Positions 11,928-37,108 of a stretch of 37,944 nt of DNA are shown here, one piece after another (within the stretch, counting starts at the first letter, position 1; every line of letters starts with the position of its first letter). This DNA is from Candidatus Onthousia excrementipullorum (GTDB taxonomy: Bacteria > Bacillota_I > Bacilli_A > RF39 > UBA660), in NCBI GenBank assembly GCA_018712385.1, contig DVHC01000035.1:1-37944 (forward strand). Reading direction: 5' to 3'. The notes beneath the pieces are model-generated. The model saw nothing but the letters and a program-made list of their open reading frames with translations, did not search any database and was not told the DNA's origin. The translations under genes and the position numbers were made by a program.

Positions 11928-13109
11928 TTATTTAATAGTATCTACTCGTGTTTTTAATGTCTTAACTAATCTTTTTTCTAACATACTTCTTTCTCTTAGA
12001 AGAAAGTCTACTGGTGTTACATCTTTATTTTTTCTAATAAATTTATTATAACTTGCTTTATGATTTTTAACAAACTCTTCTGCTTCATCAAATAGTCTCT
12101 TTTCTTTAATGCACTCTAAATCCATTTTATATCTTTTTAATGCTTCTTTATAAGGAACTCTAACTGCTATTTTTAAAATCTCTCTTTCAGCAATTCTATC
12201 AGAAAAATCATTATCATAAGTAACATAGAAATATTTAAGAGAACCATCTTCTTTAAAATTATCTCTATTTACTTTACAAATATCTATCATTTTAGCATTT
12301 TCTCTTACTACAATACTATGATAATCTTTATCAAAGTTATTAAGGGAAAAACTATTAAAAAGTTCACCTAAGCTATCTACTTTAACATCATCTTTAACTT
12401 GATAATATCTTATAGGCATTTCATCAAGATTATCTTGATATTCACTAAAAAATATTTCTTCTTTGCCTTTACCTACTATCTCAGTACTATTAGAAAGTAG
12501 TCTTATAAAATCTTGATTAAATAGTGCTAGAAATAAAGAAGGCTCAGTTAAAGACCAAGATTCGTCTTTATGATATTCTAATTCAAAACATATATCTTTT
12601 ATAAATTTATAACCTTGTCTATTACAAGGAACAATTTCTTCTTTTAATGAACTGTTACTTAATGTAACTTTTTCACTTTCCTTAATCAAGCTAAGCATTC
12701 TTTCATTTTCTTCTTTTATAGTAGTATCAACAAGTAATTTTGTAGACAGCATATTAGAGTTCATTTTTTCTTTCATAAAGTCACTAATAAAAGCATATTC
12801 TCCATATCCAAAAGAGAAACGTACTACCCCATCTCTTTTAAAAGTTATAGCATCTTGCATTCTAATATATTTAAATAAATCAAATGGTTCATTACTAGGA
12901 TATTCTTTAATATGATAAGGATATATAGTATCTTTTAAAGAGAAATAATTATTACTAAATAATAGATTAACTAAGTCTTTATTAGATAGTTTTATAATAT
13001 CATTATCTTTTAGTTCTCCATAACTAAAATTAGTATAACCTGAAAAGCCTCCACTTTTATTTAAATTAAAATATCTATAATTAGCACTATCAAATCCATT
13101 ACATTTCAT
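11928..13109 (-). CDS. Uncharacterised protein of the HipA-like kinase cassette
   Basis: I do not recognise a family in this 393-residue protein. It has no signal peptide or membrane segment, so it is probably cytoplasmic. The sequence begins MKCNGFDSANYRYFNLNKSG, has a mid-region rich in aromatic and charged residues (VRFSFGYGEYAF), and ends in a strongly basic helical part (EEFVKNHKASYNKFIRKNK, then LLRERSMLEKRLVKTLKTRV) that could bind nucleic acid or a partner. Its ATG lies inside the last codons of the HipA-like gene (overlap of 11 bases), so the two are probably translated together. That tight coupling suggests a shared function, for instance as target, regulator or effector of the kinase; this is inference. 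Confidence 0.8.
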   Translation of the reverse strand: MKCNGFDSANYRYFNLNKSGGFSGYTNFSYGELKDNDIIKLSNKDLVNLLFSNNYFSLKDTIYPYHIKEYPSNEPFDLFKYIRMQDAITFKRDGVVRFSFGYGEYAFISDFMKEKMNSNMLSTKLLVDTTIKEENERMLSLIKESEKVTLSNSSLKEEIVPCNRQGYKFIKDICFELEYHKDESWSLTEPSLFLALFNQDFIRLLSNSTEIVGKGKEEIFFSEYQDNLDEMPIRYYQVKDDVKVDSLGELFNSFSLNNFDKDYHSIVVRENAKMIDICKVNRDNFKEDGSLKYFYVTYDNDFSDRIAEREILKIAVRVPYKEALKRYKMDLECIKEKRLFDEAEEFVKNHKASYNKFIRKNKDVTPVDFLLRERSMLEKRLVKTLKTRVDTIK

Positions 13110-14289
13110 CTTTATATTTTCCCTTTGCTTGTTTTAATAACTCTATTCTTTCACCAAAACCTTCTACTGTTTTCTCTAACCTTTTGGGATTTAATTCTAT
13201 TATATCGGAATATTTTTCTAAAACTTCTTTATACTCATCTTTCAAACCATCTAATTTTGTTAAATCATATTTTTCTAACTTGATATAATTAACTAACTCA
13301 TTAACTGTCATATTATGAGAATGGAAAAACTTATATTCTTCATTATCAAAATCTAAATATGGAAGTGTTACATCTGATTGTAGGCTTGTTCCAGTATCAA
13401 AAATAGGTGTTATTCTTTCCCATTCTAAAGTTTTAACATTTCTAATAATACCATAATTTTTCATATGTCTATCTGTATTTAACATTAAATAATCAACTAT
13501 ATACATATCTGATAATTTCTTCTTTACATCTTTAATACCATAAGACTCTAAGATGCTAACATACTTTTCATAGTCACTAACATTATCATCACTATCTAAA
13601 TTCATAATATCACTAGCCGATATAATTTCTTCATCTTTAGTTAAAAAGTTCTTACACTTACTAACTAATTGCCCCGATAATATATCTAAAGTATAATTAC
13701 AATAATCTAAATCAAGTCTTTTACAAATCCTAGAAGCTAGCCATTCATTTATAGGTTCTAATCCTGATATAGAATATGTTCCTTTTACTAAAACTCTATT
13801 ATTATCTTTATCAATAATCCATCCTTTTTTTACCATTCCATCTGTAGTATTGTTAGGAGAATGCAAGCTGATTCTTGTACTTGATTCCCTAGAATTAGAA
13901 TTTAGTGATACATCTAAATAATCTTTATACTCAAAATCATTCGTAAAAAAATTTATATCTTTCCATTTTAGATTTTGTTGTTCTTCCTTAATCCAATATT
14001 GATCAGATAAAGATAATCCATAGGCTTTATTTAAAAGTTCTGTAGGAGATACTACATTTAACCTTTCTAATAACTTCTCTATATTTTGTCTCCATGCTGG
14101 AATACCTCTACCTTTAAACCATGAATTTAATGCAACTAATACATTTTCATTATGGTTATATGCATTATATAAAGATAATGGTGCATAGTTAATATCATAA
14201 AATTCATATATTTTTTGGAATGTGTTATTCTCATCCATTTCTGCTAACAATACTTTTTTATTTTGATTCATTAAGATTACTTTCATCAT
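13099..14289 (-). CDS. HipA-like protein kinase
   Basis: The start was placed at the ATG ending at 14289 because GAGGG sits eight bases before it; an ATG ten codons upstream has no such site. The 396-residue product keeps the HipA kinase landmarks: a loop rich in Asn/Thr/Gly (PNNTTDGMVKKGW, about 145-157), an ATP-binding Lys in VLVKG (Lys169), the catalytic loop LNTDRHMKNYG (Asp273, Asn278) and a metal-binding Asp in PIFDTG (Asp298). Known HipA proteins are Ser/Thr kinases, and the E. coli one phosphorylates GltX and causes persistence. The usual HipB-type helix-turn-helix antitoxin is absent next door; a zinc-ribbon protein gene precedes it and an unknown gene follows. All catalytic residues are present, so activity is likely. 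The substrate is unknown. Confidence 0.8.
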   Translation of the reverse strand: MMKVILMNQNKKVLLAEMDENNTFQKIYEFYDINYAPLSLYNAYNHNENVLVALNSWFKGRGIPAWRQNIEKLLERLNVVSPTELLNKAYGLSLSDQYWIKEEQQNLKWKDINFFTNDFEYKDYLDVSLNSNSRESSTRISLHSPNNTTDGMVKKGWIIDKDNNRVLVKGTYSISGLEPINEWLASRICKRLDLDYCNYTLDILSGQLVSKCKNFLTKDEEIISASDIMNLDSDDNVSDYEKYVSILESYGIKDVKKKLSDMYIVDYLMLNTDRHMKNYGIIRNVKTLEWERITPIFDTGTSLQSDVTLPYLDFDNEEYKFFHSHNMTVNELVNYIKLEKYDLTKLDGLKDEYKEVLEKYSDIIELNPKRLEKTVEGFGERIELLKQAKGKYKDEM

Positions 14290-14309
14290 TATCACCCTCT
14301 TTATGATAT

Positions 14310-14900
14310 CTATTTCCATCTATTAAAATCATGTCTTAAACCAAGTCTTTTCGCTCTATTTTTCTTTCTTTTCTCGCTTACTTCTATATTTCTAATATCT
14401 TCTAATGCTATCTCTAAATATTTAACAGCTGTTTTATCATCAATATCAGGATGATGTTCTTTAATTTTTTTATAAAGAGCCATAGCAAGATCTTTATCAC
14501 AAACTAAATTTATATCAGCATCATTTACAAAACTCTGTCCTTTTAAAACAGATGCCATAACTCTCTCATCAAAAGAAAGACTATCTTCTTTTCCTCTATT
14601 AGTTAATCTCAATGACTTATAATTCAAACCACATTTAACACAAACATAGTCATATTCTCCATATTCATCCATAGAAATACCCCATAAATGATTACAGTTT
14701 TCATACTCACCATATTTCATTAATCCATATAGATTTTTTCTTTTAGTAGCCAATGCATTTTTCTTTGCCTGTAGTTCTATATATTTTTTTACTATTGGAA
14801 GTTCTTCTAATCCCCATATTTCTTTCTCTATATTTCTATATTCTTTATCAATATCACTAAAGTCAGCCCTTATATATTCTAAATCATTTTTACTAATCAT
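14310..14900 (-). CDS. Zinc-ribbon protein of unknown function, upstream of the HipA-like kinase
   Basis: A 196-residue soluble protein. Residues 1-60 are highly charged and probably form a helical hairpin or coiled coil (DIDKEYRNIEKEIWGLEELP). A small metal site follows, CNHLW at 69-73 and CVKCG at 87-91, giving Cys69, His71, Cys87 and Cys90. The C-terminal half contains a helical part (DKDLAMALYKKIKEHHPDID) and a basic end (SEKRKKNRAKRLGLRHDF). I cannot name its family. It lies 20 bases before the HipA-like start, and the TGA of the small membrane gene upstream lies within its ribosome site region (TGAGGT). It could serve as the missing antitoxin or as a DNA-binding regulator; that is only a guess. 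Confidence 0.75.
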   Translation of the reverse strand: MISKNDLEYIRADFSDIDKEYRNIEKEIWGLEELPIVKKYIELQAKKNALATKRKNLYGLMKYGEYENCNHLWGISMDEYGEYDYVCVKCGLNYKSLRLTNRGKEDSLSFDERVMASVLKGQSFVNDADINLVCDKDLAMALYKKIKEHHPDIDDKTAVKYLEIALEDIRNIEVSEKRKKNRAKRLGLRHDFNRWK

Positions 14901-15078: not shown

Positions 15079-16488
15079 TTACTTATTATTTAATACTTCA
15101 TTTATCTTATCTTTAGCTTGATTTACACTATTCATATCAGGTATCATTGCATAGTCATAATCATTTAATATTGCAATAAAAACATTATTACTATCTGTAC
15201 CATCTACTGATTGAGTAGTAAATTTCCACTCTATTCCATCAATTGTATCTTTAGCAATAGATGTAACTACATCTTTAGGTATTGTTGTTGTATATAAATT
15301 ACTTAAAGAATCTAATATTTCTTTATAGTTTGTAAATGAATCGGTACTCTTTAATTTATCAAAGATAGCAAGTATAATTTTTTGACAGTTCTTTTGCCTT
15401 ACTCTATCTCTTCCTATAAAAGCATTTCTTTCTCTTGCAACAGTAAGTGTCTCTATACCATTTAGATGTTGACATCCTTTTTTTACATATAATTTTTCTT
15501 TACCACTATCATCATATGAATTTAATATAAGAGCATGAGTAGTAGTATAAGCTTGATCAGAACAATAAGTAATTCCACCTATAGTATCTACTAATTCTAC
15601 AAGACTTTCAGTAGTTACTTTTATATTATAATCTATATTAATATCAAAGAACTTTTCTAAAGATAGTTCATTTGCATCCTCTCCAAATGCATACATATGA
15701 GAAAGAGAATCTTTTTTACCATTTGTACCTGCTATTTCCATATAATAATCACGAGGAATACTAGTCATTAATATTTCATGGGTTTTAGTATTAACTGTAA
15801 TTATAGCATTATAATCTATAAGACCTGCAAAGTCTTTACCACCTATATAGATATTAAAGGCATCTTTTGTCTTTTCACTAGTTTCATTAGTTGAAGTAAT
15901 ATCTAGTTCATAAATAATTTTAAAGTTATTAGAATTAATAGTATTATCTAAAGTTAATAATATATTATAACTATTTTTATCTATTAATATAAAATCTATT
16001 TCATTATTAACAATATCTCCTATCATTTTAGGAGCATCATCGTAAGTTTTAGGATTAACATCAAATTCTTTTTTTATTTTAGTTAAAGCTTTATCAATAC
16101 TATTATTATCATAGTAATAGATATCTCCTTTAATATCTTTTTTAGTATAGTTATTACTTTTATTAGTAACTATGTAATATGTAGTTACAGTTTTTTCATT
16201 ATAGCTAAAAGATTTATCTAAGAAGTTATTAGCATAATATAGATAGTAAGTACCTATTATATTTATTATAATTGCCACAATTATTAAGATAATTCCTATA
16301 ATCTTAAAGATTTTCTTTTTTATATTAATAAAAATTATACTTAATATATTTATTATAGAGATTATAACTATTATTAAGATTAAATATTTAGTTGGCAATA
16401 TATTTATATTTAATAATAGATATAACATTACTATAAAGGTAATGATATCTATAATACTAAGTATATTTAATTTACTTATTTTTTTCAT
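15079..16488 (-). CDS. LytR-CpsA-Psr (LCP) family glycopolymer transferase
   Basis: LCP proteins move undecaprenyl-linked glycopolymers such as capsule or teichoic acid onto peptidoglycan outside the membrane. The 469-residue product has three hydrophobic helices at about 10-27, 34-55 and 60-86. An accessory domain follows at about 100-200, then the LCP domain from about 210 with SIPRDYYMEI (Arg246, Asp247) and, later, ARERNAFIGRDRVRQKNCQ, which carry the conserved Arg/Asp residues that bind the pyrophosphate lipid. It is the last gene of the capsule locus, and its start overlaps the end of the VanZ gene by 17 bases. It is therefore the likely enzyme anchoring the capsule to the wall. Confidence 0.9.
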   Translation of the reverse strand: MKKISKLNILSIIDIITFIVMLYLLLNINILPTKYLILIIVIISIINILSIIFINIKKKIFKIIGIILIIVAIIINIIGTYYLYYANNFLDKSFSYNEKTVTTYYIVTNKSNNYTKKDIKGDIYYYDNNSIDKALTKIKKEFDVNPKTYDDAPKMIGDIVNNEIDFILIDKNSYNILLTLDNTINSNNFKIIYELDITSTNETSEKTKDAFNIYIGGKDFAGLIDYNAIITVNTKTHEILMTSIPRDYYMEIAGTNGKKDSLSHMYAFGEDANELSLEKFFDINIDYNIKVTTESLVELVDTIGGITYCSDQAYTTTHALILNSYDDSGKEKLYVKKGCQHLNGIETLTVARERNAFIGRDRVRQKNCQKIILAIFDKLKSTDSFTNYKEILDSLSNLYTTTIPKDVVTSIAKDTIDGIEWKFTTQSVDGTDSNNVFIAILNDYDYAMIPDMNSVNQAKDKINEVLNNK

Positions 16489-16969
16489 AATTCATCTCTC
16501 TTTTCTTATAAGTAATAAAAATGTATATTAAACAAGCAAGTATTACTCCTATCATATCTATTAGAACATCAGTAAAGTGTCCTGTTCTACCAGATATAAA
16601 TAATTGATGTATTTCATCAGTACAAGCATAGATAAAAGATATAATAAATGTAAATATTACTACTTTTCTTTTATCTTTATTTATTTCTTTAATAGCAAGT
16701 ATTAATAGGATTGCTAAGATGAAATAAACAGTACTATGAGCACATTTTCTAAGAGGTGTATTTAAATCATCTACTAGATTATTTATCTCTTTTTCAGATG
16801 GTTTTTCATCTATTATACCAGTAGATTCAGCGATTTCTACAGTTTGTTCTATTGTATCATTTATTATCTTAGTACTACTACCATTAGAAGAAGTGCTATT
16901 CATATTAGAGAATAAGAATATTATAATCATCCATAGTATTACAAATATAAATAATATAGTTTTTTTCAT
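16472..16969 (-). CDS. VanZ-like membrane protein
   Basis: A 165-residue integral membrane protein with an N-terminal helix, a polar extracytoplasmic loop of about 60 residues, and three further helices. LRKCAHSTVYFILA and DEIHQLFISGRTGHFTDVL match the conserved VanZ pattern (KxxHxxxY and DExHQ...R...D). VanZ-type proteins are linked to teicoplanin resistance in enterococci, but most members occur beside envelope polysaccharide genes and their reaction is unknown. Here the gene lies between ugd and the LCP gene, suggesting a role in the handling of cell-wall polymers. An AAGGGG site precedes the ATG. Confidence 0.88.
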   Translation of the reverse strand: MKKTILFIFVILWMIIIFLFSNMNSTSSNGSSTKIINDTIEQTVEIAESTGIIDEKPSEKEINNLVDDLNTPLRKCAHSTVYFILAILLILAIKEINKDKRKVVIFTFIISFIYACTDEIHQLFISGRTGHFTDVLIDMIGVILACLIYIFITYKKREMNYEKNK

Positions 16970-16996: not shown

Positions 16997-18163
16997 CTAA
17001 TCTCTTGTAAATAAATCTCTTGTATATACTTTATCGCTAATCTTTTTTGTATTATCATCCATTCTATTTACTAAAACTACATCAGATAAATTACTAAATT
17101 CATTGAAATCATTAATTACCTTACAATCATTAAAAGTAGAATCCTTTAATGTTGGTTCGTAAATAACTATATTAATGTTATAGAATTTCAATCTATCAAT
17201 AATTCCTTGTATTGCACTAGCTCTAAAGTTATCAGAATCAGTTTTCATAGTTAATCTATAAATACCAACTGTTTTAGGATTTTTTCTAAGAATCATTCTT
17301 GTAATATGATCTTTTCTTGTATCATTAGACTTTACTATTGCTTCTATTAAGTTTTGTGGAACTTGTTTATAATTAGCTAATAATTGTTTTGTATCTTTAG
17401 GTAAACAATATCCACCATATCCAAAAGATGGATTGTTATAATGATTACCAATTCTAGGATCTAGACATACACCATCTATTATATCTTGTGTATTTAATCC
17501 TTTTAACTCAGCATAAGTATCTAGTTCATTAAAATATGAAACTCTTAATGCCAAATAAGTATTAGCAAATAATTTTACTGCTTCAGCTTCTGTAGAATTC
17601 ATATATTTTACTACTACACCTTTTTTAATAGCACAATCTAATAATAAATCAGCAAATTCTTCTGCTCTTTTGCTTTTTTCTCCTACAATTATTCTAGAAG
17701 GATATAAATTATCATACAAAGCTTTTCCTTCTCTTAAAAATTCTGGAGAAAACATAATATTATCAATACCATATTTTTCTTTTACTGATTCAATAAAACC
17801 AACTGGAATAGTTGACTTTACTACCATAGTAGTATCAATACCCATACTAATAACTTTTTCAATAATATCTTCAACACTAGATGTATCAAAGAAGTTTAAT
17901 TCATCATCATAATTTGTAGGAGTACTAATTATAATAAATTTAGCTCCTTCAAATGCTTCTTTATAATCTAATGTTGCTGTTAAATTTAGATCTTTAGTTT
18001 TAAAAAACTCTTCAATCTTTTCATCTTTAATTGGTGAAATACGGTCATTAATCATCTTAACCTTTTCAGGAATAATATCTAATGTCATAACTTCATTATT
18101 TTGACTAAGTAATGTTGCTAAAGATAAACCAACATACCCTGTTCCTGCTACTGCTATTTTCAT
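16997..18163 (-). CDS. ugd: UDP-glucose 6-dehydrogenase
   Basis: Cytoplasmic NAD+-dependent enzyme oxidising UDP-glucose to UDP-glucuronate. The 388-residue protein has the N-terminal Rossmann motif AGTGYVGLSLA, STPTNYDDE, KSTIPVGF, SPEFLREGKALYDN, and the catalytic Cys253 in GYGGYCLPKDTKQ. The length and the SPEFLREG motif fit the short bacterial UDP-glucose dehydrogenase group better than the UDP-ManNAc dehydrogenases, but the substrate is not proven. UDP-glucuronate is the expected donor for the glucuronate that the C5-epimerase-like protein of this locus would act on. The gene has its own promoter just upstream, so it can be transcribed apart from the glycosyltransferase block. Confidence 0.9.
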   Translation of the reverse strand: MKIAVAGTGYVGLSLATLLSQNNEVMTLDIIPEKVKMINDRISPIKDEKIEEFFKTKDLNLTATLDYKEAFEGAKFIIISTPTNYDDELNFFDTSSVEDIIEKVISMGIDTTMVVKSTIPVGFIESVKEKYGIDNIMFSPEFLREGKALYDNLYPSRIIVGEKSKRAEEFADLLLDCAIKKGVVVKYMNSTEAEAVKLFANTYLALRVSYFNELDTYAELKGLNTQDIIDGVCLDPRIGNHYNNPSFGYGGYCLPKDTKQLLANYKQVPQNLIEAIVKSNDTRKDHITRMILRKNPKTVGIYRLTMKTDSDNFRASAIQGIIDRLKFYNINIVIYEPTLKDSTFNDCKVINDFNEFSNLSDVVLVNRMDDNTKKISDKVYTRDLFTRD

Positions 18164-18197: not shown

Positions 18198-18226
18198 ATT
18201 ATAATACTAGCACTTATTACAGGCAA
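18198..18226 (-). promoter_or_regulatory. Promoter of the ugd-vanZ-LCP unit
   Basis: The minus strand shows TTGCCT (18221-18226), a 17-base spacer and a perfect TATAAT (18198-18203), 35-63 bases before the ugd ATG and overlapping the end of the flippase gene. Two direct copies of AGCACTT (18209-18215 and 18226-18232) lie over the spacer and -35 box and could be a regulator site. Confidence 0.65.
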
Positions 18227-19668
18227 GCACTTTTAATTTTTTTTCTACCTATTTTTGATAAAATTTTCTTAATATCAACTATAGACAAAATATATTTTAA
18301 ATTCAAGACTCCATATATAACGCAACCCAAACTCAATTGAAGCAGCAATCGTAATAAAGTGTTCATTGATATATAATTAAAAGAATATACTGCTATCAAC
18401 ATTACAAATGCTTTAATAAAAAAAGGTAATGCATTTTTTATATATTTTTTAACATTCAATTCGTTTTTTACCGATATAGTTTGATAAATAGCTACTATTG
18501 CCTCAGCAAATATTGTCCCAATACATGCGCCGACACTTGCATACTTTGGTATCAAAATAATATTTATGACTAAATTAACAATAGCACCTAAAGAAACAGA
18601 TATAATATAGTCCTTGTCTCTTTCTTTAGGAATTAAATATTGAGTTCTTATCACATTTGCAAATGATAAAAATGGTAGTGTTACCGCTAAAAGCATTATT
18701 AAAATCCCAGTCTTTTGGAATTCTTGCCCAAAATAAAATGGAGCAAATTTATAACCAATAGCAATAAGTCCAAAGCACATTGCAAATGATAAAAACATAA
18801 CAAAACTAATGGATTTAGTAATATAGTCATTTGCTTTTCCCTTTTCACCTTTGGCAAGAATATTTGACATTCTAGGTAACATAACAGTACCCAAAGCTGT
18901 TATTAAAGTCATAGGTATATTAGTTATCTTTTCTGCATTTTCAAAAAAGCCCACTTCATTTACGTTAGTCATCATTCCTAACATTACCTTATCAATCATT
19001 TTATACAAACTGACAGCGATGACTGGGATAAACAAAACTAAATTGGGTTTTATATGCTTTATTATATCTTTTAATGAGATTTTCACAAAACTTATTTTTT
19101 TTCTCACAGAGTTCCACAATATAAGCTGACTTAATACAGTCATTCCTGACATAATTAAAGTATATTTCCATAAATCTTGACTTTCTTTAACAAAAAGGAA
19201 AATCAATACTACATTACCTACTTTTACAAACGAATTACGCGTAATAGTTTTTTTAAATTCTTCAAGACCAAAAAACAACCAATTAATATCTAATATAGAT
19301 GATACAATAAATAAAGTTTGTATTAGTGCAATCAATCTATATTGATTATCAAATAAATATATATACAACAAGTATAAAATCAACATTACAATTCCCATCA
19401 CAAGTTGAAAAAAATAGATACTCCAAAATGTTTTAGATAATTTTTTCTTATCATCACGAACTTTAGCAATGGATCTATTACCATAATTATTTACACCTAA
19501 AAGTGTTAACAACATAAAATAATATACTATAGAATATGTATAAGAATAAGTACCTACACCTTCAGCCCCTACTACTCTAGACAAGTAAGGGGCAGTTATT
19601 AATGGAATAATTAATATTAATATTTGATATATGATATTGTATATAAAGTTTTTTTTAGGACTATGCAT
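18217..19668 (-). CDS. wzx: Wzx-type polysaccharide repeat-unit flippase
   Basis: Moves undecaprenyl-linked repeat units across the cytoplasmic membrane for polymerisation outside. The 483-residue product has about 12-14 hydrophobic helices and opens with the standard Wzx region (ITAPYLSRVVGAEGVGTYSY), followed by GVNNYGNRSIA. VNEVGFFENAEKITNIP in the middle also matches the MOP/MATE flippase superfamily. The start was set at the ATG ending at 19668, preceded at eight bases by AGGTG; the GTG three codons earlier is part of that ribosome site. It overlaps the end of the acyltransferase gene by eight bases. It is the last gene of the variable part of the capsule locus. Confidence 0.93.
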   Translation of the reverse strand: MHSPKKNFIYNIIYQILILIIPLITAPYLSRVVGAEGVGTYSYTYSIVYYFMLLTLLGVNNYGNRSIAKVRDDKKKLSKTFWSIYFFQLVMGIVMLILYLLYIYLFDNQYRLIALIQTLFIVSSILDINWLFFGLEEFKKTITRNSFVKVGNVVLIFLFVKESQDLWKYTLIMSGMTVLSQLILWNSVRKKISFVKISLKDIIKHIKPNLVLFIPVIAVSLYKMIDKVMLGMMTNVNEVGFFENAEKITNIPMTLITALGTVMLPRMSNILAKGEKGKANDYITKSISFVMFLSFAMCFGLIAIGYKFAPFYFGQEFQKTGILIMLLAVTLPFLSFANVIRTQYLIPKERDKDYIISVSLGAIVNLVINIILIPKYASVGACIGTIFAEAIVAIYQTISVKNELNVKKYIKNALPFFIKAFVMLIAVYSFNYISMNTLLRLLLQLSLGCVIYGVLNLKYILSIVDIKKILSKIGRKKIKSACL

Positions 19669-20674
19669 TTTTATCACCTATATTAACCAATTTGTTTAAA
19701 TATGGAATTTTATTTATAATAACGGATATTGTTAAACTAACAAAAAACAATCCAATCCATATTATTGTTGAAAGAATCCAGCCACCATTATGTACAGTTA
19801 AATCAAATAATTTTACAAAAAAGATATGAATTACATAAATACCGATTGAATTTTTTTCTATATAGAGAATTACATTGCTTAATTTTGAGCTTTTAATATC
19901 TAATGATAATATTAAGTTAAACAAACACACACACCAAAATATAATCAAAATATTTCCATATATATATTCTGAGTTTATAAATTTAGTATATTTAAAATAT
20001 AGCAGATATTGTGTGATTACCGCTCCTATTGATAAAAACACTAATAATATAATTTTTTTCTTTGATATGTTTATTTTTTTGTTATTTACATAATTTGAAA
20101 TATATCCTCCTAAATAAAAATAAAACAGCCACAACCAAACTCTAAACGTTTGAGGAATTAACTTCATAATTATAAAATTATCTTTTAACATAATAACGTT
20201 ATTGATTGTATCAAATAATACAGAAACTATCAAACATATTGTTAAAAATATAATATACCTTTTCTTTGTTATAAGGATTTTATTTAGAATTATTGCAAAA
20301 AAATATACAAGTGTTAATGCCCAAAAAAACCAAAATATACTTAATCCACTTTCTCCAAATATTGAACCAATAAATATTATTAACGGATTATTTCTTCTAA
20401 GAATGCCATATATAATAGACCAAATAACTACAAGAAGTATCATCTGAATACCTTTTTTTATTAAATATTTAGCCGTCCGTTTTTTCCTTAATATTAAGTA
20501 ACCGTTGACTAAGAAAAAAATTGGAATTGCAAATCTCGAAAAATAGTATAATGCTGGATTATATATTTCTCCTAAATATACATTTCGTTGCGTATGTAGC
20601 GCTAATACCGCTAGACAAGCCATTACTTTTAATAACGAAATGGATACATTCTTTTTTTTTATTACTTTATTCAT
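19661..20674 (-). CDS. Membrane acyltransferase (acyltransferase 3 family)
   Basis: Predicted O-acetyl or other acyl transferase that modifies the capsule sugar. The 337-residue protein has about ten hydrophobic helices. It begins SISLLKVMACLAVLALHTQ, with the family's conserved His, followed by FSRFAIPIFFLVNGYLILRK with the conserved Arg; IGIYVIHIFF is near the C terminus. The start was placed at the ATG ending at 20674, with GGGTGA before it, because the 15 upstream codons belong to the polymerase gene that it overlaps by eight bases. The acyl donor and acceptor cannot be told. Confidence 0.88.
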   Translation of the reverse strand: MNKVIKKKNVSISLLKVMACLAVLALHTQRNVYLGEIYNPALYYFSRFAIPIFFLVNGYLILRKKRTAKYLIKKGIQMILLVVIWSIIYGILRRNNPLIIFIGSIFGESGLSIFWFFWALTLVYFFAIILNKILITKKRYIIFLTICLIVSVLFDTINNVIMLKDNFIIMKLIPQTFRVWLWLFYFYLGGYISNYVNNKKINISKKKIILLVFLSIGAVITQYLLYFKYTKFINSEYIYGNILIIFWCVCLFNLILSLDIKSSKLSNVILYIEKNSIGIYVIHIFFVKLFDLTVHNGGWILSTIIWIGLFFVSLTISVIINKIPYLNKLVNIGDKNA

Positions 20675-21812
20675 AATTATCACCCAACTTTTTTGAATAT
20701 TGATGAAGATATAATGCAAAATACATTATATATATATCAAATTGATATTTATATAAAATACTTTCTATCATACAAATCAGCACATAAACAGTAATAATAG
20801 ATAACATCGCTCCGTCTTTTTTTTCATATGCCGTATTTATTATTTTTCTAAGCAAATAATAAATAATAATGAAGGTTAATATTCCATAATTCAAAACTAA
20901 ACTCAAATATGAATTATCAAGAACTGAAGCTCTTTCAGATATTAATTTAGCCTCTTGAGTGCTTATATAATTTATTTTATTACCTAATAAGTTAATATCA
21001 TATTCATTTAAAAAACTACTTGCGTAAAAAATTCTATTCGATAAAATTTCATTCACTTTAATTACAAATTCATTGTGATTATTATATAAATTAACAAAGA
21101 TTAGTGTTAATGCTATAAAGATTATAGGTAAATTTATTATAATGAATTTAAAAAAATTATTATATAAATATTTGATTTTTAACTTCTGACTTAGAAATAT
21201 TAAAACTAATAAAAGTAATAACCCAATTACGCTAGTTCTACTATTTGAAACAAAATATATTAATAATGCCATTATTAAAATAACCAAATAATTTTTTATT
21301 TTAAACTTTTGATAATTCAAATATACATAGTCTGCACATATTGTAAACATATACATTCCAAAATTATTAGGATGAGCAAACCCCATCGAGCTTCTTATTC
21401 TTCCATCAGGTCTATACATAAAATAATTATTTGTTAAGTCCATATTATATAGTATTATTACTATGGTGCATAAAACGACTCTGATTATAATATCTTTTTT
21501 AATAAATTTTTCAAAGTCTTCACCAGGATATATAAGAATTAAAAGATATAATAATAATATATTATTATCACCTGTTATAATATAGCTTACCATAAGAACT
21601 GTTATAATGATTAATGATATTATTATTATTTTTAATGACATTTTTTTGATTCTTATCACAAAAAATAATATCATTAATCCAAATGCAAAATATTTAATGT
21701 ATGGAATGAAGCTCATTAAAAATTTAACATTGGACATTATTGAACAAATTAATAAGAGTGTGTAAGTAAAGTAAAAAATTGAATTTTCTTTGATTTTAAA
21801 TTTATCTATCAT
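20667..21812 (-). CDS. wzy: Wzy-type O-antigen/capsule polymerase
   Basis: Predicted polymerase that joins repeat units on the outer face of the membrane. The 381-residue protein has about 10-12 hydrophobic helices. A large extracytoplasmic loop (about residues 230-300, with NEYDINLLGNKINYIS) and the pattern RIRSSMGFAHPNNFGMYMF followed by VSNSRTSVIGLLLLL are typical of Wzy/O-antigen ligase-like proteins. These proteins are poorly conserved, so the call rests on topology, these motifs and position between a glycosyltransferase and the flippase. The ATG ending at 21812 is preferred over a GTG three codons upstream. It overlaps the upstream gene by 11 bases. Confidence 0.85.
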   Translation of the reverse strand: MIDKFKIKENSIFYFTYTLLLICSIMSNVKFLMSFIPYIKYFAFGLMILFFVIRIKKMSLKIIIISLIIITVLMVSYIITGDNNILLLYLLILIYPGEDFEKFIKKDIIIRVVLCTIVIILYNMDLTNNYFMYRPDGRIRSSMGFAHPNNFGMYMFTICADYVYLNYQKFKIKNYLVILIMALLIYFVSNSRTSVIGLLLLLVLIFLSQKLKIKYLYNNFFKFIIINLPIIFIALTLIFVNLYNNHNEFVIKVNEILSNRIFYASSFLNEYDINLLGNKINYISTQEAKLISERASVLDNSYLSLVLNYGILTFIIIYYLLRKIINTAYEKKDGAMLSIITVYVLICMIESILYKYQFDIYIMYFALYLHQYSKKLGDNYE

Positions 21813-22806
21813 ATTGCTCACTTTCTTTTAACTCTATTAATGTTTTATCTGGCAATAACTTTATTGTTCTTTTTAATCTAATGAACCTGTAAATTTTACT
21901 AATTGGAAAATATAAATCAAAAATTTCTAAAACTAATTTAATTCTTTTTTGAAATGTTAAATTAGGACTATATTTCTTTTTAAAATAATCTAATTTATTA
22001 ATATTTCTAAGCTGTCTGTTTCTAACCAGATATACTAATAAATTATAGTAATTATCCGTATAAATTTTTTTAATTTCATCTTTTTCAAAATTATTTATTT
22101 GCTTTTGAAAGGTTTCCAAGAATTTTATTCTATATTCAATCATTTTATCAATATTTGGCACATTAGATCTGTCTTCTTCCATCTTCACAACCGAAAAATC
22201 TTCAATATAATCAACTTCATACTTAGAAAAATATCTTACTAGCACTTCTAAATCTTGATGTCGAAAAAAGCTTTCGTCAAAACCATTTATATCAACTAAA
22301 CTCTTTTTAGAAAAAAACAAATTACTACCTGTAGCAAAAAATGATTTTTGACTTAGAATGTCTTTTTGTAAATTTCCGCTTTTTGTGTTTCTCACAATTT
22401 TTTTTATTTTATTGTTTTCTATTACGATAACCCCTGTGTAGTACAAATCAGCTTTTTTTCCTTTTTCACTTATTTTTTGTAAAATGTTTTTTATTCTATT
22501 TTTAAGAAAATAATCATCATCATCTAAAAAAGTAATGTAGTCACCTTTAGCTTGTAATATTCCTGTATTTCTAGCCGCAGCGCCATTTTTATTCTTTTTA
22601 TGTTTTAAATATATTACCTTTTTGTTATTTTTATATTGTTCCATGATTTCTTCCATTTTTTTTCTATCTTCGCAGTTTTCATCATTATCGTCAACTACAA
22701 TAACTTCTATATTAGAATATGTTTGATTTAAAACACTATTTATTGCTCGACATATAAATGCTGGCCTTTTATATGTGGGAATAATCACACTAACTTTAAC
22801 ACTCAT
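21802..22806 (-). CDS. Family 2 glycosyltransferase with C-terminal extension
   Basis: Cytoplasmic GT-A type enzyme that adds a sugar to the lipid-linked repeat unit. The 334-residue product opens with VSVIIPTYKRPAFICRAINS and VLNQTYSNIEVIVVDDND, then NGAAARNTGI and the DxD-like FLDDDDYF. GFDESFFRHQDLEVLVRYF corresponds to the acceptor-side motif. The last 90 residues are basic and helical and may attach to the membrane surface. The exact sugar is unknown. An AGGTGA site lies before the ATG. Confidence 0.9.
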   Translation of the reverse strand: MSVKVSVIIPTYKRPAFICRAINSVLNQTYSNIEVIVVDDNDENCEDRKKMEEIMEQYKNNKKVIYLKHKKNKNGAAARNTGILQAKGDYITFLDDDDYFLKNRIKNILQKISEKGKKADLYYTGVIVIENNKIKKIVRNTKSGNLQKDILSQKSFFATGSNLFFSKKSLVDINGFDESFFRHQDLEVLVRYFSKYEVDYIEDFSVVKMEEDRSNVPNIDKMIEYRIKFLETFQKQINNFEKDEIKKIYTDNYYNLLVYLVRNRQLRNINKLDYFKKKYSPNLTFQKRIKLVLEIFDLYFPISKIYRFIRLKRTIKLLPDKTLIELKESEQYDR

Positions 22807-22814
22807 TGTTTCAC

Positions 22815-23765
22815 CTACTTTACTAAACTTGTATTTATATCATAATATTTACTTTTTATAATTTTTTGTTTTAACTTAATTATCATTGCACATAATTTAT
22901 AAAACTTTATAGCTTGGTATTTTTGCCATTTATCAGCATAAATAATAAATTCTTCATTGCCAAACATTTCATATAATAATTGTAATTGCTTAATGTGTAA
23001 ATCATGATAGGCTGGACTTGCAATAGTTCCTTTTAAGTCATAATTTGACCAAAATTTTCGATCGTACAATTTTAATTTTTTTATCATGGAAGCAACTGTT
23101 CGATTTAAAATATCTTTATACTTTTCATCGTCATTAATTAAAGTGTAATCATAAAGACCAAAGATAGTGAAAACCCATCCATTTAATACTGATAAATTAT
23201 ATTTAGATACATATTCTTGAAAAATAACATCATTTTTTTCATAAAGACATGTGCCACCATTTTTAATATCCTTAATCATGAAATCAATTGCTTTGGTTGC
23301 GCTTTTATAATATTTTTCTTTCTTTGTTTCTGTATATGCTCTTAATAATACTGATATTCCTTCGCTTTGACACATCGAAGATTGAGTTTGGTGAGCTTGG
23401 TCTTTTAACTTTCCCATGCAATCCCACATTCCATTTTTATTCTGATTACTAATTGCCCAGTCTGCAATGTTAATAAACTTTTCTAAAAATTCTTTTTTAT
23501 TTTCTAAAAGATATTTGTCATAAAGTCCCAGGGCATATTGAAAAATGGTAATTGGAAAATAAGCTTTTACATTAGCTACTGTAATATTTATTGGGATGCC
23601 CTTATCATCTAAAATTGTCTTATCAGATACTTTATTTGTTAAATCATTATAATATCCTTTTACTGTACTTAAAGAATAGCACTTTCCTCTTCCTTGTTCT
23701 ACATGAAATTGACTTTTACCAAATAACATATTCATCCATCTTCTTAATAGTTTTAAAGCTTTCAT
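22815..23765 (-). CDS. D-glucuronyl C5-epimerase-like protein (C5-epim_C)
   Basis: The 316-residue protein resembles the C-terminal catalytic domain of heparan-sulfate glucuronyl C5-epimerase (PF06662), which turns D-glucuronate into L-iduronate within a glycan. Motifs include YFPITIFQYALGLYDKYL (69-86), NGMWDCMGKLKDQA (111-124), SMCQSEGISVLLRAY (130-144), LNGWVFTIFGLYDY (194-207) and SPAYHDLHIKQL (250-261). Together these give the repeating helical hairpins of an (alpha/alpha) barrel and conserved Tyr/His residues. No signal peptide or transmembrane helix is clear; only a short basic start (MKALKLLRRWMNMLF) is present, so it probably works in the cytoplasm on lipid-linked units. Ugd in the same locus supplies the glucuronate donor. 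A related non-epimerase activity cannot be excluded. Confidence 0.78.
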   Translation of the reverse strand: MKALKLLRRWMNMLFGKSQFHVEQGRGKCYSLSTVKGYYNDLTNKVSDKTILDDKGIPINITVANVKAYFPITIFQYALGLYDKYLLENKKEFLEKFINIADWAISNQNKNGMWDCMGKLKDQAHQTQSSMCQSEGISVLLRAYTETKKEKYYKSATKAIDFMIKDIKNGGTCLYEKNDVIFQEYVSKYNLSVLNGWVFTIFGLYDYTLINDDEKYKDILNRTVASMIKKLKLYDRKFWSNYDLKGTIASPAYHDLHIKQLQLLYEMFGNEEFIIYADKWQKYQAIKFYKLCAMIIKLKQKIIKSKYYDINTSLVK

Positions 23766-23769
23766 AATA

Positions 23770-24783
23770 CTACCTCTCTATTTCTTTTTTAAAATCCCTT
23801 AATAATTCTGTTAGCATATATTTTTTTGACAACTCCCTGGATTTTATTTTAAACTTTTCTATTTTTCTAGATGAAATCATTTCTGTTACCTTTTTATACA
23901 TATCTTCATAATTCTGATATTCAAAAATTACTCCATTTTCGTTGCTTAAAATATATTCTTTTGCATATTTCCAATTTGAAGCAACAACAGCCAATCCAGC
24001 AATATAGCAATCAATTAATGCACCTGGTAAACATTCGCCAGGATATTCTGTAGGAAATATAAATATATCATATTGAGATAAAATCTCATATTCATGTTGA
24101 TTATCTGGAACTATCTCTCCATGATATTTAATAGCTGAACTAAATTGTTTTTTAATTACTTTTAAGTAATCATCAGTACATTGTCCATATATATCTAAGG
24201 AACATTTTATATTTTCTTTGTTTAGCCTATTAATTAACTGTATTGCTTCTTCAATTCCTTTTTGTTTTATTACTCTTCCAAAATACACAAACTTCACATT
24301 ATCAGTTTTCTTATAACAATTTTTGAATTTTTTAGGATTTCGAAAATTATTTAAAACTTTTACATTGTTAATACCTAAATTATTCAAATCTTCCTTTAAA
24401 GTATTTGCTTCTACATAAATCTGTTTCAATCTTTTATATGTATTTAAGTTCCATTTTTTTTCTTTAATATTTCTAAACAAAGATCCACCGATTACAAAAT
24501 AATATACCTTTTTTTTACACTTTATTTTTCGAAAAAAATCTAATACAATATGTGCTCCTTTATCGGCTGATGATACAATTATTTCATCGCATTGAAAGAA
24601 ATAAAAAAGAATAGAAACAACTAATTTAAAAATATGTTTTTTCCAATTATCTGTATCTATAGAAATAACTTGTATTTTCTCTATATCATTAAGATAATCT
24701 CTTAATAATCTACATTTAATTGTTTCACCATCTAACCTATTTCTATTATCAGCAGTCGTGGCAATATATAATATTTTTTTCAT
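23770..24783 (-). CDS. Family 4-type (GT-B) glycosyltransferase
   Basis: A 337-residue cytoplasmic enzyme. The N-terminal half is divergent but includes YFVIGGSLFRNIKEKKWN. The C-terminal half has the GT-B features FVYFGRVIKQKGIEEAIQL, SLDIYGQC, and PTEYPGECLPGALIDCY, where the Glu-containing EYPGECLPGALID stretch corresponds to the EX7E nucleotide-sugar motif. It is expected to extend the capsule repeat unit; the donor sugar is unknown. It lies five bases upstream of the epimerase-like gene on the minus strand, with an AGGTG ribosome site. Confidence 0.85.
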   Translation of the reverse strand: MKKILYIATTADNRNRLDGETIKCRLLRDYLNDIEKIQVISIDTDNWKKHIFKLVVSILFYFFQCDEIIVSSADKGAHIVLDFFRKIKCKKKVYYFVIGGSLFRNIKEKKWNLNTYKRLKQIYVEANTLKEDLNNLGINNVKVLNNFRNPKKFKNCYKKTDNVKFVYFGRVIKQKGIEEAIQLINRLNKENIKCSLDIYGQCTDDYLKVIKKQFSSAIKYHGEIVPDNQHEYEILSQYDIFIFPTEYPGECLPGALIDCYIAGLAVVASNWKYAKEYILSNENGVIFEYQNYEDMYKKVTEMISSRKIEKFKIKSRELSKKYMLTELLRDFKKEIER

Positions 24784-24790
24784 ATAGCAC

Positions 24791-25570
24791 CTACTTCTTT
24801 ATATAAATTCTCTTCTTTACAGCATTAAATGCATACCCAACAAAACAGTAACAAGTTTTCCATAATGGAAGTTTTTCTATTTTTCGATACCAATACCAAT
24901 TCATTTTAACAGCTTTGAACTTATTGCTTGATAACGAATTACTAACTACTCTATAATAAGACAAATTTTCAGGGCATTCATAACAATCAAATCCATTTTT
25001 TAATAATTGACACCAAGTCGCAGCATCTTGTCGTCTCCTAATATTGGGCATTTCTAATAATTCTTTTCCAGTTAATTTTGTATCTACCATAACACAAACA
25101 GTTTGAATAATAGTATTTCGTAAAAATAAATTATAATTAACCTTTTTAGGAATCTTAATTACTTTATTTAACGAATTACCATTTTCATATATTTTTTCAT
25201 AATCAGTACATGTAAAAGCATAGTTGTTATCTAACATAAAATTAACTTGTTTTTCTAATTTTTCATTTTTCCATAAATCATCAGCATCAAGATACGCAAT
25301 AAATCTTCCTTTGGACTCATGTAACGCTTTATTTCTAGCAACAGCTGCACCACTATTTTTTTCTAATTTAATATATTTAATTCTAGAATCATCTTTTGCA
25401 TATTTTTTAATTATATCGGCAGAATTATCCGGGCTACAATCATCTACCATTAACAATTCCCAATTATCATATGTTTGATTCAAAACACATTCAATAGTAT
25501 CTTTTACAAATTTCTCACACTTGTAAATAGGTGTGATAATTGATACTAATTCATTCCTTTCTTTAGTCAT
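24791..25570 (-). CDS. Family 2 glycosyltransferase
   Basis: A 259-residue GT-A enzyme. It has VSIITPIYKCEKFVKDTIE, VLNQTYDNWELLMVDDCSPD and NSGAAVARNKALHE, the metal-binding YLDADDLW, and RRRQDAATWCQLLKNGF near the acceptor site. The start was set at the ATG ending at 25570 because GAGAGGTG lies just before it; the five codons upstream overlap that ribosome site. It is the first gene after the intra-operon hairpin and so may act early in building the repeat unit after the priming transferase. Donor and linkage are unknown. Confidence 0.9.
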   Translation of the reverse strand: MTKERNELVSIITPIYKCEKFVKDTIECVLNQTYDNWELLMVDDCSPDNSADIIKKYAKDDSRIKYIKLEKNSGAAVARNKALHESKGRFIAYLDADDLWKNEKLEKQVNFMLDNNYAFTCTDYEKIYENGNSLNKVIKIPKKVNYNLFLRNTIIQTVCVMVDTKLTGKELLEMPNIRRRQDAATWCQLLKNGFDCYECPENLSYYRVVSNSLSSNKFKAVKMNWYWYRKIEKLPLWKTCYCFVGYAFNAVKKRIYIKK

Positions 25571-25590
25571 AACAACACCTCTCAAAAATA

Positions 25591-25621
25591 AAAAGTACTC
25601 ATGTTAAAACACCGTACTTTT
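25591..25621 (-). terminator. Intra-operon terminator/attenuator in the capsule locus
   Basis: Perfect 8-bp stem (25591-25598 with 25614-25621), a 15-base loop, and on the minus strand a T-rich tail after the stem (TTTTTATTTTT-like). It overlaps the stop of the priming transferase gene and precedes the glycosyltransferase block, so it should reduce or control read-through into the variable genes. Confidence 0.65.
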
Positions 25622-26378
25622 ATTTAGCTCCTTTTTTACAAATTACCGCACTTATTGTTTTAAACACACACTTAATATCTAACCATAAACTTCTATTCTT
25701 TACATAATAATATTCTAATTCTAGTCTTTCTTCATAAGTGGTTGCACTTCTACCATTACATGCCCACCATCCAGTAATACCAGGCCTTACACTTTCATAT
25801 ATTTCATGATTACCATTATGTGAATCTAATTCTCCTGGTACTAGTGGCCTAGGACCAATCATAGACATATCACCTTTTAAGATGTTAATAAATTGAGGCG
25901 CTTCATCAAGAGATGTTTTTCTAAGAATATTACCTATTTTAGTAATTCTTGGATCGTTTTCAAATTTTTGATATTTCTTCCACTCTTCAGCTCTTTTTTT
26001 ATCATTTTTTAAAGTTTGCTCTAATATTTCATCTGCATTAATGACCATAGACCTAAATTTATATAGTTTAAACTCTTTACCATCTTTTCCAATTCTTTTT
26101 TGAAAATAGAATATAGAATCAAAGTCTTTATTACATATATTTACAATCTTCACTATAACAATCAATGGTACTAAACATACTACTCCTATTAATCCACATA
26201 CTATATCAAAACATCTTTTTACAAACAAATAAACTAACTCTCTTACTGATGATAATACTGATACTTTTTTCTTTACTTCTTCATATTCATTAACATCTAC
26301 TATTATTTCACTAGTTTTAATAAAATCTTCTTCTTTTCCTTTATTGTCATCATCGACTACATCAATCATTTCGTTCAT
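25620..26378 (-). CDS. Polyprenyl-phosphate sugar-1-phosphate transferase (initiating capsule transferase)
   Basis: Starts capsule repeat-unit synthesis by moving a sugar-1-phosphate from its nucleotide donor to undecaprenyl phosphate. The 252-residue protein has an acidic N-terminal extension of about 45 residues, one hydrophobic segment at about 55-78 and the catalytic domain: FQKRIGKDGKEFKLYKFRSM, KIGNILRKTSLDEAPQFIN, ILKGDMSMIGPRPLVPGE, and PGITGWWACNGR. This is the WcaJ/CpsE C-terminal core without the usual N-terminal four-helix domain. It follows the kinase-phosphatase genes, as in other Bacillota capsule loci. The primed sugar (glucose, galactose or an N-acetyl sugar) is not clear. 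Confidence 0.92.
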   Translation of the reverse strand: MNEMIDVVDDDNKGKEEDFIKTSEIIVDVNEYEEVKKKVSVLSSVRELVYLFVKRCFDIVCGLIGVVCLVPLIVIVKIVNICNKDFDSIFYFQKRIGKDGKEFKLYKFRSMVINADEILEQTLKNDKKRAEEWKKYQKFENDPRITKIGNILRKTSLDEAPQFINILKGDMSMIGPRPLVPGELDSHNGNHEIYESVRPGITGWWACNGRSATTYEERLELEYYYVKNRSLWLDIKCVFKTISAVICKKGAK

Positions 26379-26409: not shown

Positions 26410-27138
26410 TCACCTTTTTATACTAAAGTTTTCATTTAGTATAACTTTATCAAAATTATTTTTTAACACATCCTCTACCATGTTATCATTTTTTAATATT
26501 GATTTCAATTTCTTTTTTAATTTTTTTATCTTAAAATCTCCATCATGATGACAATCACTTCCTAAAAATGTTATCTTATGATTTTTTAATAAATAAATTA
26601 AAGTTTTTTTGGCATCTCTACCATATTTGCCGAACAAACTTTTATAATTTCCTTGTAGTAATACCCCCATTCTTAGATATTCCTCTATATGTTCTCTATG
26701 TTTTTGAAAGATTCTATATCTTTCCGGATGAGCTAGTATTGGAACGTATCCTTTTACTATTAGGTTATAAATTATATCTTTAGTATTATATAACATATTA
26801 CCTAAAGGAAATTCTATTAAAATATATTTAGAATTATTTAAGGTAGTTATTTCTTTGTTTTTTATTAATTTTAAAATATTTTCATTTATTAACACTTCGT
26901 TACCTAAATACAATTTTATATTTATCTTTTCTTTTTCTACTTCTTCTTTTAGTTCATTAAAGCGTTTTATCTTTTCTTTATTATTACAATTATATTTACT
27001 ATCTTCTATATAATGCGGAGTAATCATTAACTCAGTAATCCCTTGTTTTTCAGCTTCTTTTAATAAAGTTATACTCTCACTTATATCCTTACTGCCATCA
27101 TCTATTCCATACAAGAGATGTGAATGCATATCTTTCAT
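26410..27138 (-). CDS. cpsB: CpsB/YwqE-type tyrosine-protein phosphatase
   Basis: Mn2+-dependent PHP-fold phosphatase that removes phosphate from the tyrosine cluster of the capsule kinase CpsD and so controls chain length and export. The 242-residue product has the PHP metal-binding motifs MHSHLLYGIDDGSKD (start), MITPHYIE, LIEFPLG, PILAHPERYRIF and GSDCHHDG. This is the complete set for the family. Its ATG overlaps the TGA of cpsD (ATGA), so translation is probably coupled. The order cpsC-cpsD-cpsB then priming transferase is a normal capsule front end. Confidence 0.93.
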   Translation of the reverse strand: MKDMHSHLLYGIDDGSKDISESITLLKEAEKQGITELMITPHYIEDSKYNCNNKEKIKRFNELKEEVEKEKINIKLYLGNEVLINENILKLIKNKEITTLNNSKYILIEFPLGNMLYNTKDIIYNLIVKGYVPILAHPERYRIFQKHREHIEEYLRMGVLLQGNYKSLFGKYGRDAKKTLIYLLKNHKITFLGSDCHHDGDFKIKKLKKKLKSILKNDNMVEDVLKNNFDKVILNENFSIKR

Positions 27139-27863
27139 CTTTTTCTTTTCTTCTTTTTCTTACTTTTATTTCCATCACCATAGTATTCATTAGAGTAATA
27201 ACTATAGTAACTATTATCTTTAACTGATGCTTTATTTATAATTACTCCTGATATTTTAGTATTAGCTTTTTCAAATACTTTTTTAGCTTTATCTAAACTT
27301 TCTATTTTAGTTTTTTTATTACTTACAACGACAATATTAGTATCACTATATTTAGTCATTATCATTGTATCACTAAGCCCTAAGACTGGTGGACAATCAA
27401 GAAGAATAATATCGTATTTACCTCTTAATTGTTCCATTAGTTTTTTATTATTTTCAGAAACTAGTAGTTCTACAGGATTAGGTGGTGTTGGTCCTGTTGG
27501 TAATAAATCTATATTTTTGTTGGTAGTTTCAACTATATATTTTTTTAATTTTATATCATCTTTATAATTTAGTATTAAATTAGAGTATCCTCCACTAGTT
27601 AGATTCATTACTTCAAATATTTCATGTTGTCTTCCTCTTCTTAAATCACAATCTACTACTAATACTTTTTTACCTTCTTGAGCATATGCTACAGCAAGAT
27701 TTGCTGTTATAAAACTCTTACCATCTCCTGACATAGGTGATGTTAATAGTATTACTTTCATTTCTTTATCTATTGCTTGAAAAGCAAGATTAGTACGAAT
27801 TGTTTTTATAGCTTCACTAAATACTGATTTAGGGTTAGCATTAATTATTAAATCTGTTGTCAT
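27135..27863 (-). CDS. cpsD: Capsule BY-kinase CpsD (tyrosine autokinase)
   Basis: Cytoplasmic bacterial tyrosine kinase that pairs with the membrane activator CpsC. The 242-residue protein has the Walker A motif SPMSGDGKS (Lys49), the Walker A' motif VLVVDCDLRRG and the Walker B motif IILLDCPPVLG. A C-terminal tyrosine cluster (SYYSYYSNEYYGDG) is the likely autophosphorylation site. The last residues are almost all Lys/Arg (NKSKKKKKRKR), an unusual basic tail. The ATG ending at 27863 was chosen because AAGGAG lies eight bases before it; a GTG two codons upstream is inside that site. It is flanked by cpsC and cpsB. Confidence 0.93.
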   Translation of the reverse strand: MTTDLIINANPKSVFSEAIKTIRTNLAFQAIDKEMKVILLTSPMSGDGKSFITANLAVAYAQEGKKVLVVDCDLRRGRQHEIFEVMNLTSGGYSNLILNYKDDIKLKKYIVETTNKNIDLLPTGPTPPNPVELLVSENNKKLMEQLRGKYDIILLDCPPVLGLSDTMIMTKYSDTNIVVVSNKKTKIESLDKAKKVFEKANTKISGVIINKASVKDNSYYSYYSNEYYGDGNKSKKKKKRKR

Positions 27864-27868
27864 AATCA

Positions 27869-28537
27869 CTACTCCTTATCTTCTTCTTTAGGAACAATTC
27901 CAATAACAGGAAGTCCTAATTTTTCTTCTACTACTTCACTTGATTTAATAGTAGTATCAAAATAATACATAACAAATACTATGCCAAAAGATAATACGAT
28001 TCCTATCATTAAATAGATAATATTGTCTTTTACATAGTTAATGTTATAAGGAGAAGTAGCAACCTCAGCTTTATCTATAATTGTAACATTTTCTAGATTA
28101 TAGATATCTTGTACTTCTTTAGAAAATACAGTAGCTACTTCATCGGCTATTTTAGCAGCTTCTTTTCTTTTAGAACTATTTACAGTAATTTTAATAATTT
28201 CTGTATCTTCTACTGATGATGTTGTAATATTTTTTGATAAACTTTCTGTTGTAGTTTTTAGTTTTAAATTATCTATTACTTGCGATAATACTGTTCTACT
28301 TGTAATAATTTGACTATAGGTACCAATCAAATTTTGATTTAATACTGAGTCACTTTGACTATAACCTTTTTTACTCTCACCAACTAAAACAAGTGTAGTA
28401 TTACTTTGATACATTGGAACTCTAGTAATAATTGTATAAATATTACCGATAACTACAATTGCAACTATTGCTATAAGGATCCAAAGTATTCTGAATTTGA
28501 AGTATGTATATACTTCTTTTAAATTAATCTCTTCCAT
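27869..28537 (-). CDS. cpsC: Capsule chain-length/kinase activator protein CpsC (Wzz family)
   Basis: Membrane protein that determines polymer length and activates the kinase CpsD. The 222-residue product has two membrane helices (about 15-35 and 178-198) around an extracytoplasmic Wzz domain (YQSNTTLVLVGESK, VLSQVIDNLKLKTT, IIKITVNSSKRKEAAKIAD). The C-terminal cytoplasmic tail (LGLPVIGIVPKEED) contacts the kinase in known systems. It is the first gene of the capsule operon, with an AGGAGGG site and a strong promoter upstream. Confidence 0.92.
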   Translation of the reverse strand: MEEINLKEVYTYFKFRILWILIAIVAIVVIGNIYTIITRVPMYQSNTTLVLVGESKKGYSQSDSVLNQNLIGTYSQIITSRTVLSQVIDNLKLKTTTESLSKNITTSSVEDTEIIKITVNSSKRKEAAKIADEVATVFSKEVQDIYNLENVTIIDKAEVATSPYNINYVKDNIIYLMIGIVLSFGIVFVMYYFDTTIKSSEVVEEKLGLPVIGIVPKEEDKE

Positions 28538-28569: not shown

Positions 28570-28598
28570 ATTATAACATTTGATATACAGCTAGTCAA
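28570..28598 (-). promoter_or_regulatory. Main capsule operon promoter
   Basis: The minus strand has TTGACT (28593-28598), a 17-base spacer and a perfect TATAAT (28570-28575) that is also extended (TGTTATAAT). The transcript would start about 25 bases before cpsC. This is one of the strongest sigma-A-type promoters in the window. Confidence 0.85.
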
Positions 28599-37078: not shown

Positions 37079-37108
37079 AAAGAAAGAAGTTATTAAGCTT
37101 CTTTCTTT
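37079..37108. terminator. Hairpin at the end of the right-edge Rpn gene
   Basis: A perfect 11-bp stem (37079-37089 with 37098-37108) with an eight-base loop overlaps the last codons of the Rpn gene, much like the hairpin at 213-240 behind the left copy. The T tract behind it on the minus strand is broken, so some read-through into addB is possible. Confidence 0.55.

Follow-up and report, generated by a model that had tools for sequence, protein, structure and literature searches.

A gene in the capsule operon of Candidatus Onthousia excrementipullorum encodes a protein that is, by family, predicted fold and catalytic residues, a Glce-type C5-epimerase of predicted activity. It is probably a minimal, cytosolic uronosyl C5-epimerase that acts on glucuronic acid (GlcA) linked to undecaprenyl diphosphate (Und-PP), before the flippase Wzx and the polymerase Wzy. 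The window, by which we mean the entire stretch of 37,944 nucleotides that was analysed, contains the gene and its operon on the minus strand (Table 1).

Table 1. Features of the epimerase operon, with positions in the window
Feature	Position	Strand	Basis
C5-epimerase, Glce-type	22815..23765	-	316 residues, ATG start; without beta-sandwich and without export signal
GT4-type glycosyltransferase	23770..24783	-	PF00534, E 9e-19; 4 bases lie between its end and the epimerase gene; a homologue neighbours the epimerase in L012
TuaG-like GT2 glycosyltransferase (teichuronic acid pathway), candidate partner	24791..25585	-	NF047683, 347.7 bits (cut-off 400)
GT2 glycosyltransferase, directly downstream of the epimerase	21802..22806	-	PF00535, E 1e-34
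Probable Wzy repeat-unit polymerase	20667..21821	-	PF04932 and TIGR04370, below curated cut-offs; operon position
Acyltransferase 3 family, possible repeat-unit O-acetylation	19661..20719	-	PF01757, E 8e-32
Wzx flippase	18217..19677	-	PF01943, E 8e-36
Ugd, UDP-glucose 6-dehydrogenase (UDP-GlcA supply)	16997..18163	-	NF011631, TIGR03026
Initiating phosphoglycosyl transferase (PGT)	25620..26378	-	PF02397, E 1e-62
CpsB phosphatase, Wze kinase and Wzz chain-length protein	26410..28537	-	PF19567, PF13614, PF02706
VanZ-family protein and LCP glycopolymer transferase, last genes of the operon	15079..16969	-	PF03816, NF051849, PF04892
Promoter-like TTGACT-17-TATAAT (extended -10), immediately 5' of wzz	28570..28598	-	Consensus match only; the scan yields no more sites than shuffles

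The capsule operon and its variation within the genus

The genes run in the order wzz, wze, cpsB, PGT, GT2 (TuaG-like), GT4, C5-epimerase, GT2, wzy, acyltransferase, wzx, ugd, VanZ, LCP, and a few bases separate the epimerase gene from the neighbour on either side. A homologue 48% identical to the TuaG-like GT2 lies beside the epimerase in the related locus L012. Intrinsic terminators are no more frequent than in shuffles. An earlier note on this DNA had recognized a Wzx/Wzy capsule locus, and the PGT, the glycosyltransferases, Wzx, the CpsB/Wze/Wzz block and LCP are indeed all present in this one operon; the Wzy candidate is its weakest call, with 25.5 bits for PF04932 (cut-off 31.7) and 29.1 bits for TIGR04370 (cut-off 40). 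The same note's description of the capsule as glycosaminoglycan-like goes too far, as nothing points to an alternating amino-sugar/uronate backbone or to sulfation, and none of the operon genes scanned gave a sulfotransferase match.

Ugd, encoded in the epimerase operon, would supply UDP-GlcA, as the earlier note had proposed. It scores 566 bits with NF011631 (below the cut-off of 757) and 328 bits with TIGR03026 (above the cut-off). The enzyme might instead have another hexuronate as its target, or another stage of synthesis: GalA or an N-acetylhexosaminuronate of the lipid-linked unit, or the nucleotide sugar. The sequence evidence does not fix the substrate sugar, and the equivalent of one catalytic tyrosine, Tyr185, varies across the clade to which the protein belongs (see below). 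However, models of aminosugar dehydrogenases score much lower for Ugd than that of UDP-glucose 6-dehydrogenase, no 4-epimerase was detected in the operon genes scanned, and characterised Glce works on GlcA inside a chain only, so that we regard this alternative as unlikely. If the substrate sugar is GlcA, iduronic acid (IdoA) is the expected product.

Sister genomes of the genus have wzz-wze-cpsB at 93–100% identity (99% between the window and G030), and VanZ-LCP, where the contig extends far enough, is 95–99.6% identical (G030 and G003), while the central cassette differs between genomes. Conserved ends around a swapped central cassette are what characterises a capsule-type (serotype-like) locus. 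Among the 35 genomes of the genus, one has the epimerase gene and the other 34 do not. The idea that ugd is always accompanied by the epimerase gene can be rejected: G003 retains ugd at 99% identity alongside other cassette genes and no epimerase, so that in this genus GlcA might also be used without being epimerised. The G+C content of the epimerase gene gives no sign of recent foreign origin.

Elsewhere in the window, two proteins (8153–8992 and 37093–37920) that have no Pfam match contain a common motif, YKGIRYNG.NK.E.YLS..TANSYEE. A gene for a HipA-like kinase domain protein (13099–14319, PF07804) overlaps a gene of 393 codons, also without a Pfam match, within 11928–14319.

Family, predicted fold and catalytic residues

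The protein matches PF06662 (C5-epim_C), the family of the C-terminal, catalytic domain in D-glucuronyl C5-epimerase, over the full 188-position profile with an E-value of 4.3e-38 and 131 bits (curated cut-off, 23.3 bits). Human and zebrafish Glce were the only matches when solved structures were searched with phmmer (human 6hzz at E 2.6e-18). A profile built from 15 relatives reached these two enzymes at ~1e-48, followed by GH76 mannanases at 4e-05. The AlphaFold2 model of the protein (pLDDT 89.6, pTM 0.90) retrieved Glce chains at the first eight ranks in Foldseek. It can be aligned with human Glce by VIA-align with a Z-score of 28.8 and 3.0 Å for 268 residues (model residues 14–292 with human residues 157–616), compared to Z-scores of at most 17 for GH76, cellobiose 2-epimerase and similar folds. 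The match to the catalytic domain of heparan-sulfate C5-epimerase, on which the earlier note was built, is thus well founded.

The catalytic residues of human Glce are Glu499, Tyr500, Asn510, Tyr560 and Tyr578 (PMC13308652), which align with Glu184, Tyr185, Asn195, Tyr242 and Tyr253 of the window protein in both the phmmer and the profile alignments. Glu184 and Asn195 are invariant in all 39 sequences, a set that includes human and zebrafish Glce, and Tyr242 and Tyr253 are conserved in 37 of 38 relatives. The position of Tyr185 is variable (tyrosine in 24 sequences, phenylalanine in six, and others), including within the 12-member clade described below. The earlier note had suggested comparing a predicted structure with the Glce active site; the Glce fold is recovered and all three catalytic tyrosines are kept.

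These results make it improbable that the protein is no longer an epimerase, being either a dead scaffold or a hydrolase or lyase on an (alpha/alpha) barrel that, for example, trims lipid-linked units. Although the fold class is common to GH76, unsaturated glucuronyl hydrolases and AGE-type epimerases, the catalytic set of Glce is complete, and the Z-score of 28.8 to Glce compares with 17 to any hydrolase.

Animal GLCE (6HZZ, 6I01, 4PW2, 4PXQ) and the window protein have in common the alpha-helical catalytic domain, the five catalytic residues and the predicted fold. An N-terminal segment of GLCE is also weakly matched (GIP...YFPITIFQYAL in the window protein; GIPIN...YFPITIFQYALGLY aligned with GVPLS...YFYPIQIAQYGLSHY of Glce). 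In contrast, the beta-sandwich region of ~160 residues that lies between the matched stretches of animal GLCE (chain positions 140 to 300) is absent from the window protein, as is the signal anchor or secretory N-terminus. The window protein differs further in its additional cationic C-terminal tail, its location in a bacterial capsule operon and its presumed short, lipid-linked substrate.

A clade without export signals

A scan of 84,980 species genomes identified 33 loci with relatives. In a maximum-likelihood tree, the window protein belongs to a clade of 12 members (support 100/99) that spans about seven phyla (Bacillota, Bacteroidota, Chloroflexota, Actinomycetota, Nitrospirota, Omnitrophota and Nealsonbacteria), a count to which errors in metagenome binning could have added one or two false phyla. 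All 12 epimerases adjoin a glycosyltransferase; one GT4 family follows the epimerase in six loci (six assigned phyla) and another precedes it in five. Wzx and/or Wzy are found at the window, L014, L017, L019, L021 and L024, whereas the short sequences of L012, L013 and L015 do not allow a call; L016, L018 and L020 fall outside this count. A sample of 392 genomes of the phylum contained one other clear match, in G337 (L003), whose protein equals that of L019. The rarity in bacteria assumed by the earlier note therefore holds within the genus and the phylum sample, but the clade itself is widely scattered across bacteria.

The epimerase gene has a plausible ribosome-binding site (AGAGAGG) ahead of its ATG, and an in-frame TAG five codons upstream makes a longer N-terminus bearing a signal impossible. 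Signals were predicted by hydropathy only, which detects no hydrophobic N-terminal segment in the window protein, in agreement with the lack of a clear export signal pointed out previously, or in any of the 12 clade members. A cationic C-terminal tail is likewise present in all 12 (net charge +2 to +10, consensus near RA...K..QKL); it is missing in several exported relatives, and some proteins beyond the clade that are not exported have it too. In L023, L028, L034, L036, L038–L040, L042 and two phage proteins, the N-terminus is clearly that of a signal, an anchor or a lipoprotein. Since the signal-less state is common to a phylum-spanning clade, while other relatives are exported, it provides independent support for cytosolic action.

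The lipoprotein or signal-bearing bacterial proteins of L028, L034 and L023 possess the same domain and most of the catalytic residues, but are exported, lie outside the 12-member clade and presumably act on polymer. The lipoprotein-type epimerases of L028 (9872–11341) and L034 (2145–3614) are near-identical, even though their metagenome-assembled genomes are assigned to different phyla. In L028, the gene adjoins wzx, a GT4 and wzy. This arrangement suggests that extracytoplasmic, polymer-level epimerisation may also exist in Wzx/Wzy loci; thus, the type of locus alone does not dictate cytosolic action. That the window protein is a true GlcA C5-epimerase acting outside the cell on growing or finished polymer, after non-classical export, is nevertheless very improbable: such a role would suit the polymer-level activity of characterised Glce, that of a bacterial Bermanella enzyme on O-desulfated heparin (PMC13308652) and the setting of L028, but not a clade entirely devoid of hydrophobic N-termini, an open reading frame that cannot be extended upstream, or the obvious signals carried by family members likely to act outside.

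Additional PF06662 proteins occur in other settings. No relative of the window protein was found on viral contigs, and plasmids yielded only distant relatives, in Priestia and Deinococcus. One of these (L008 3530–4483, Priestia megaterium plasmid NZ_CP151784) is signal-less and has glycosyltransferases and a nucleotide sugar dehydrogenase as neighbours, with spore coat genes nearby. In Alkalihalobacillus, two exported proteins with the C5-epimerase domain are encoded side by side (L038 7299–8399 and 8474–10705), flanked by CWB2 cell-wall-binding proteins. PF06662 is also matched by proteins of Pseudomonas phage vB_Pae_CF121b (L011 7773–9455, with 14 relatives; E 4e-35) and Bradyrhizobium phage ppBeUSDA76-1 (L010 5656–6741; E 1e-44). 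Both are annotated as hypothetical and belong to no PHROG family; they have signal-peptide-like starts and are encoded directly downstream of tailspike or tail-fibre genes. They are possibly secreted modifiers of the host surface polysaccharide.

Proposed mechanism and its implications

In the Wzx/Wzy pathway, undecaprenyl phosphate at the inner leaflet carries the repeat unit during its assembly, and polymerisation takes place outside the cell. A cytosolic epimerase thus reaches only nucleotide sugars or the lipid-linked unit and, since the Glce-type reaction takes place on GlcA that is part of a chain, a lipid-linked oligosaccharide is the likely substrate. We propose that Ugd would produce UDP-GlcA, and that an operon glycosyltransferase would add GlcA to the Und-PP-linked repeat unit begun by the PGT. 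The epimerase, possibly held at the inner leaflet through cationic amphipathic end segments, would then invert C5 of the lipid-linked GlcA to give IdoA by the acid-base mechanism of Glce, using Glu184, Tyr185, Asn195, Tyr242 and Tyr253. Wzx would then flip the finished unit for polymerisation by Wzy, and LCP would link the product to the wall. The two closely packed glycosyltransferases would fit an epimerisation that falls between two sugar additions or directly follows them. As C5 epimerisation is reversible, one would expect it to be drawn forward by a selective step that follows, such as the next transferase, Wzx or Wzy.

The need for such a downstream pull to achieve clean conversion counts against the cytosolic model, as do the Wzx/Wzy setting of L028, the Wzy scores below cut-offs and the variability of Tyr185. 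In addition, Glce, whose cleft takes about seven sugars, requires a substrate of six sugars or more (PMC13308652), and this minimum, longer than many single repeat units, argues against a lipid-linked unit as the substrate. Action inside the cell on the lipid-linked unit, the central proposal of the earlier note, is supported in its topology, by a wholly signal-less clade with exported relatives, whereas the substrate step is one that we infer.

Lipid-linked epimerisation is not without precedent. Agl32 of Halobacterium salinarum converts GlcA to IdoA on a dolichol-linked tetrasaccharide before export and requires the next sugar to be in place first; it has none of the catalytic residues of Glce and an unrelated active site (PMC13308652). 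The reaction proposed here would likewise convert GlcA to IdoA on a lipid-linked oligosaccharide before export, but Agl32 serves N-glycosylation rather than capsule formation. The statement in the earlier note that known epimerases of this fold act on polymer stands with that restriction, and does not extend to Agl32. Only one bacterial Glce-type epimerase has been reported as biochemically demonstrated (PMC13308652). RED65_08024 of Bermanella marisrubri is a bacterial Glce-type enzyme reported to have GlcA-to-IdoA activity in vitro (PMC13308652, PMC4432689). Few bacterial polysaccharides have been found to contain iduronate (PMC13308652). No link between a C5-epimerase and Wzx was found in the literature, coverage of which was partial and is no proof of absence.

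We consider the chances slightly better than even that a phylum-spanning cytosolic clade installs iduronate on Und-PP-linked units before polymerisation, as a second evolutionary route beside that of archaeal Agl32. Small soluble enzymes for short, defined oligosaccharides would help in making iduronate-containing sugars, because animal Glce requires longer substrates. With its fixed topology and operon context, the clade offers many candidate enzymes and a prediction of which capsules contain iduronate. If correct, epimerisation would move from the polymer to the precursor, and each repeat could bear a C5-inverted sugar at a set position, compared to the partial, polymer-level epimerisation of heparan sulfate.
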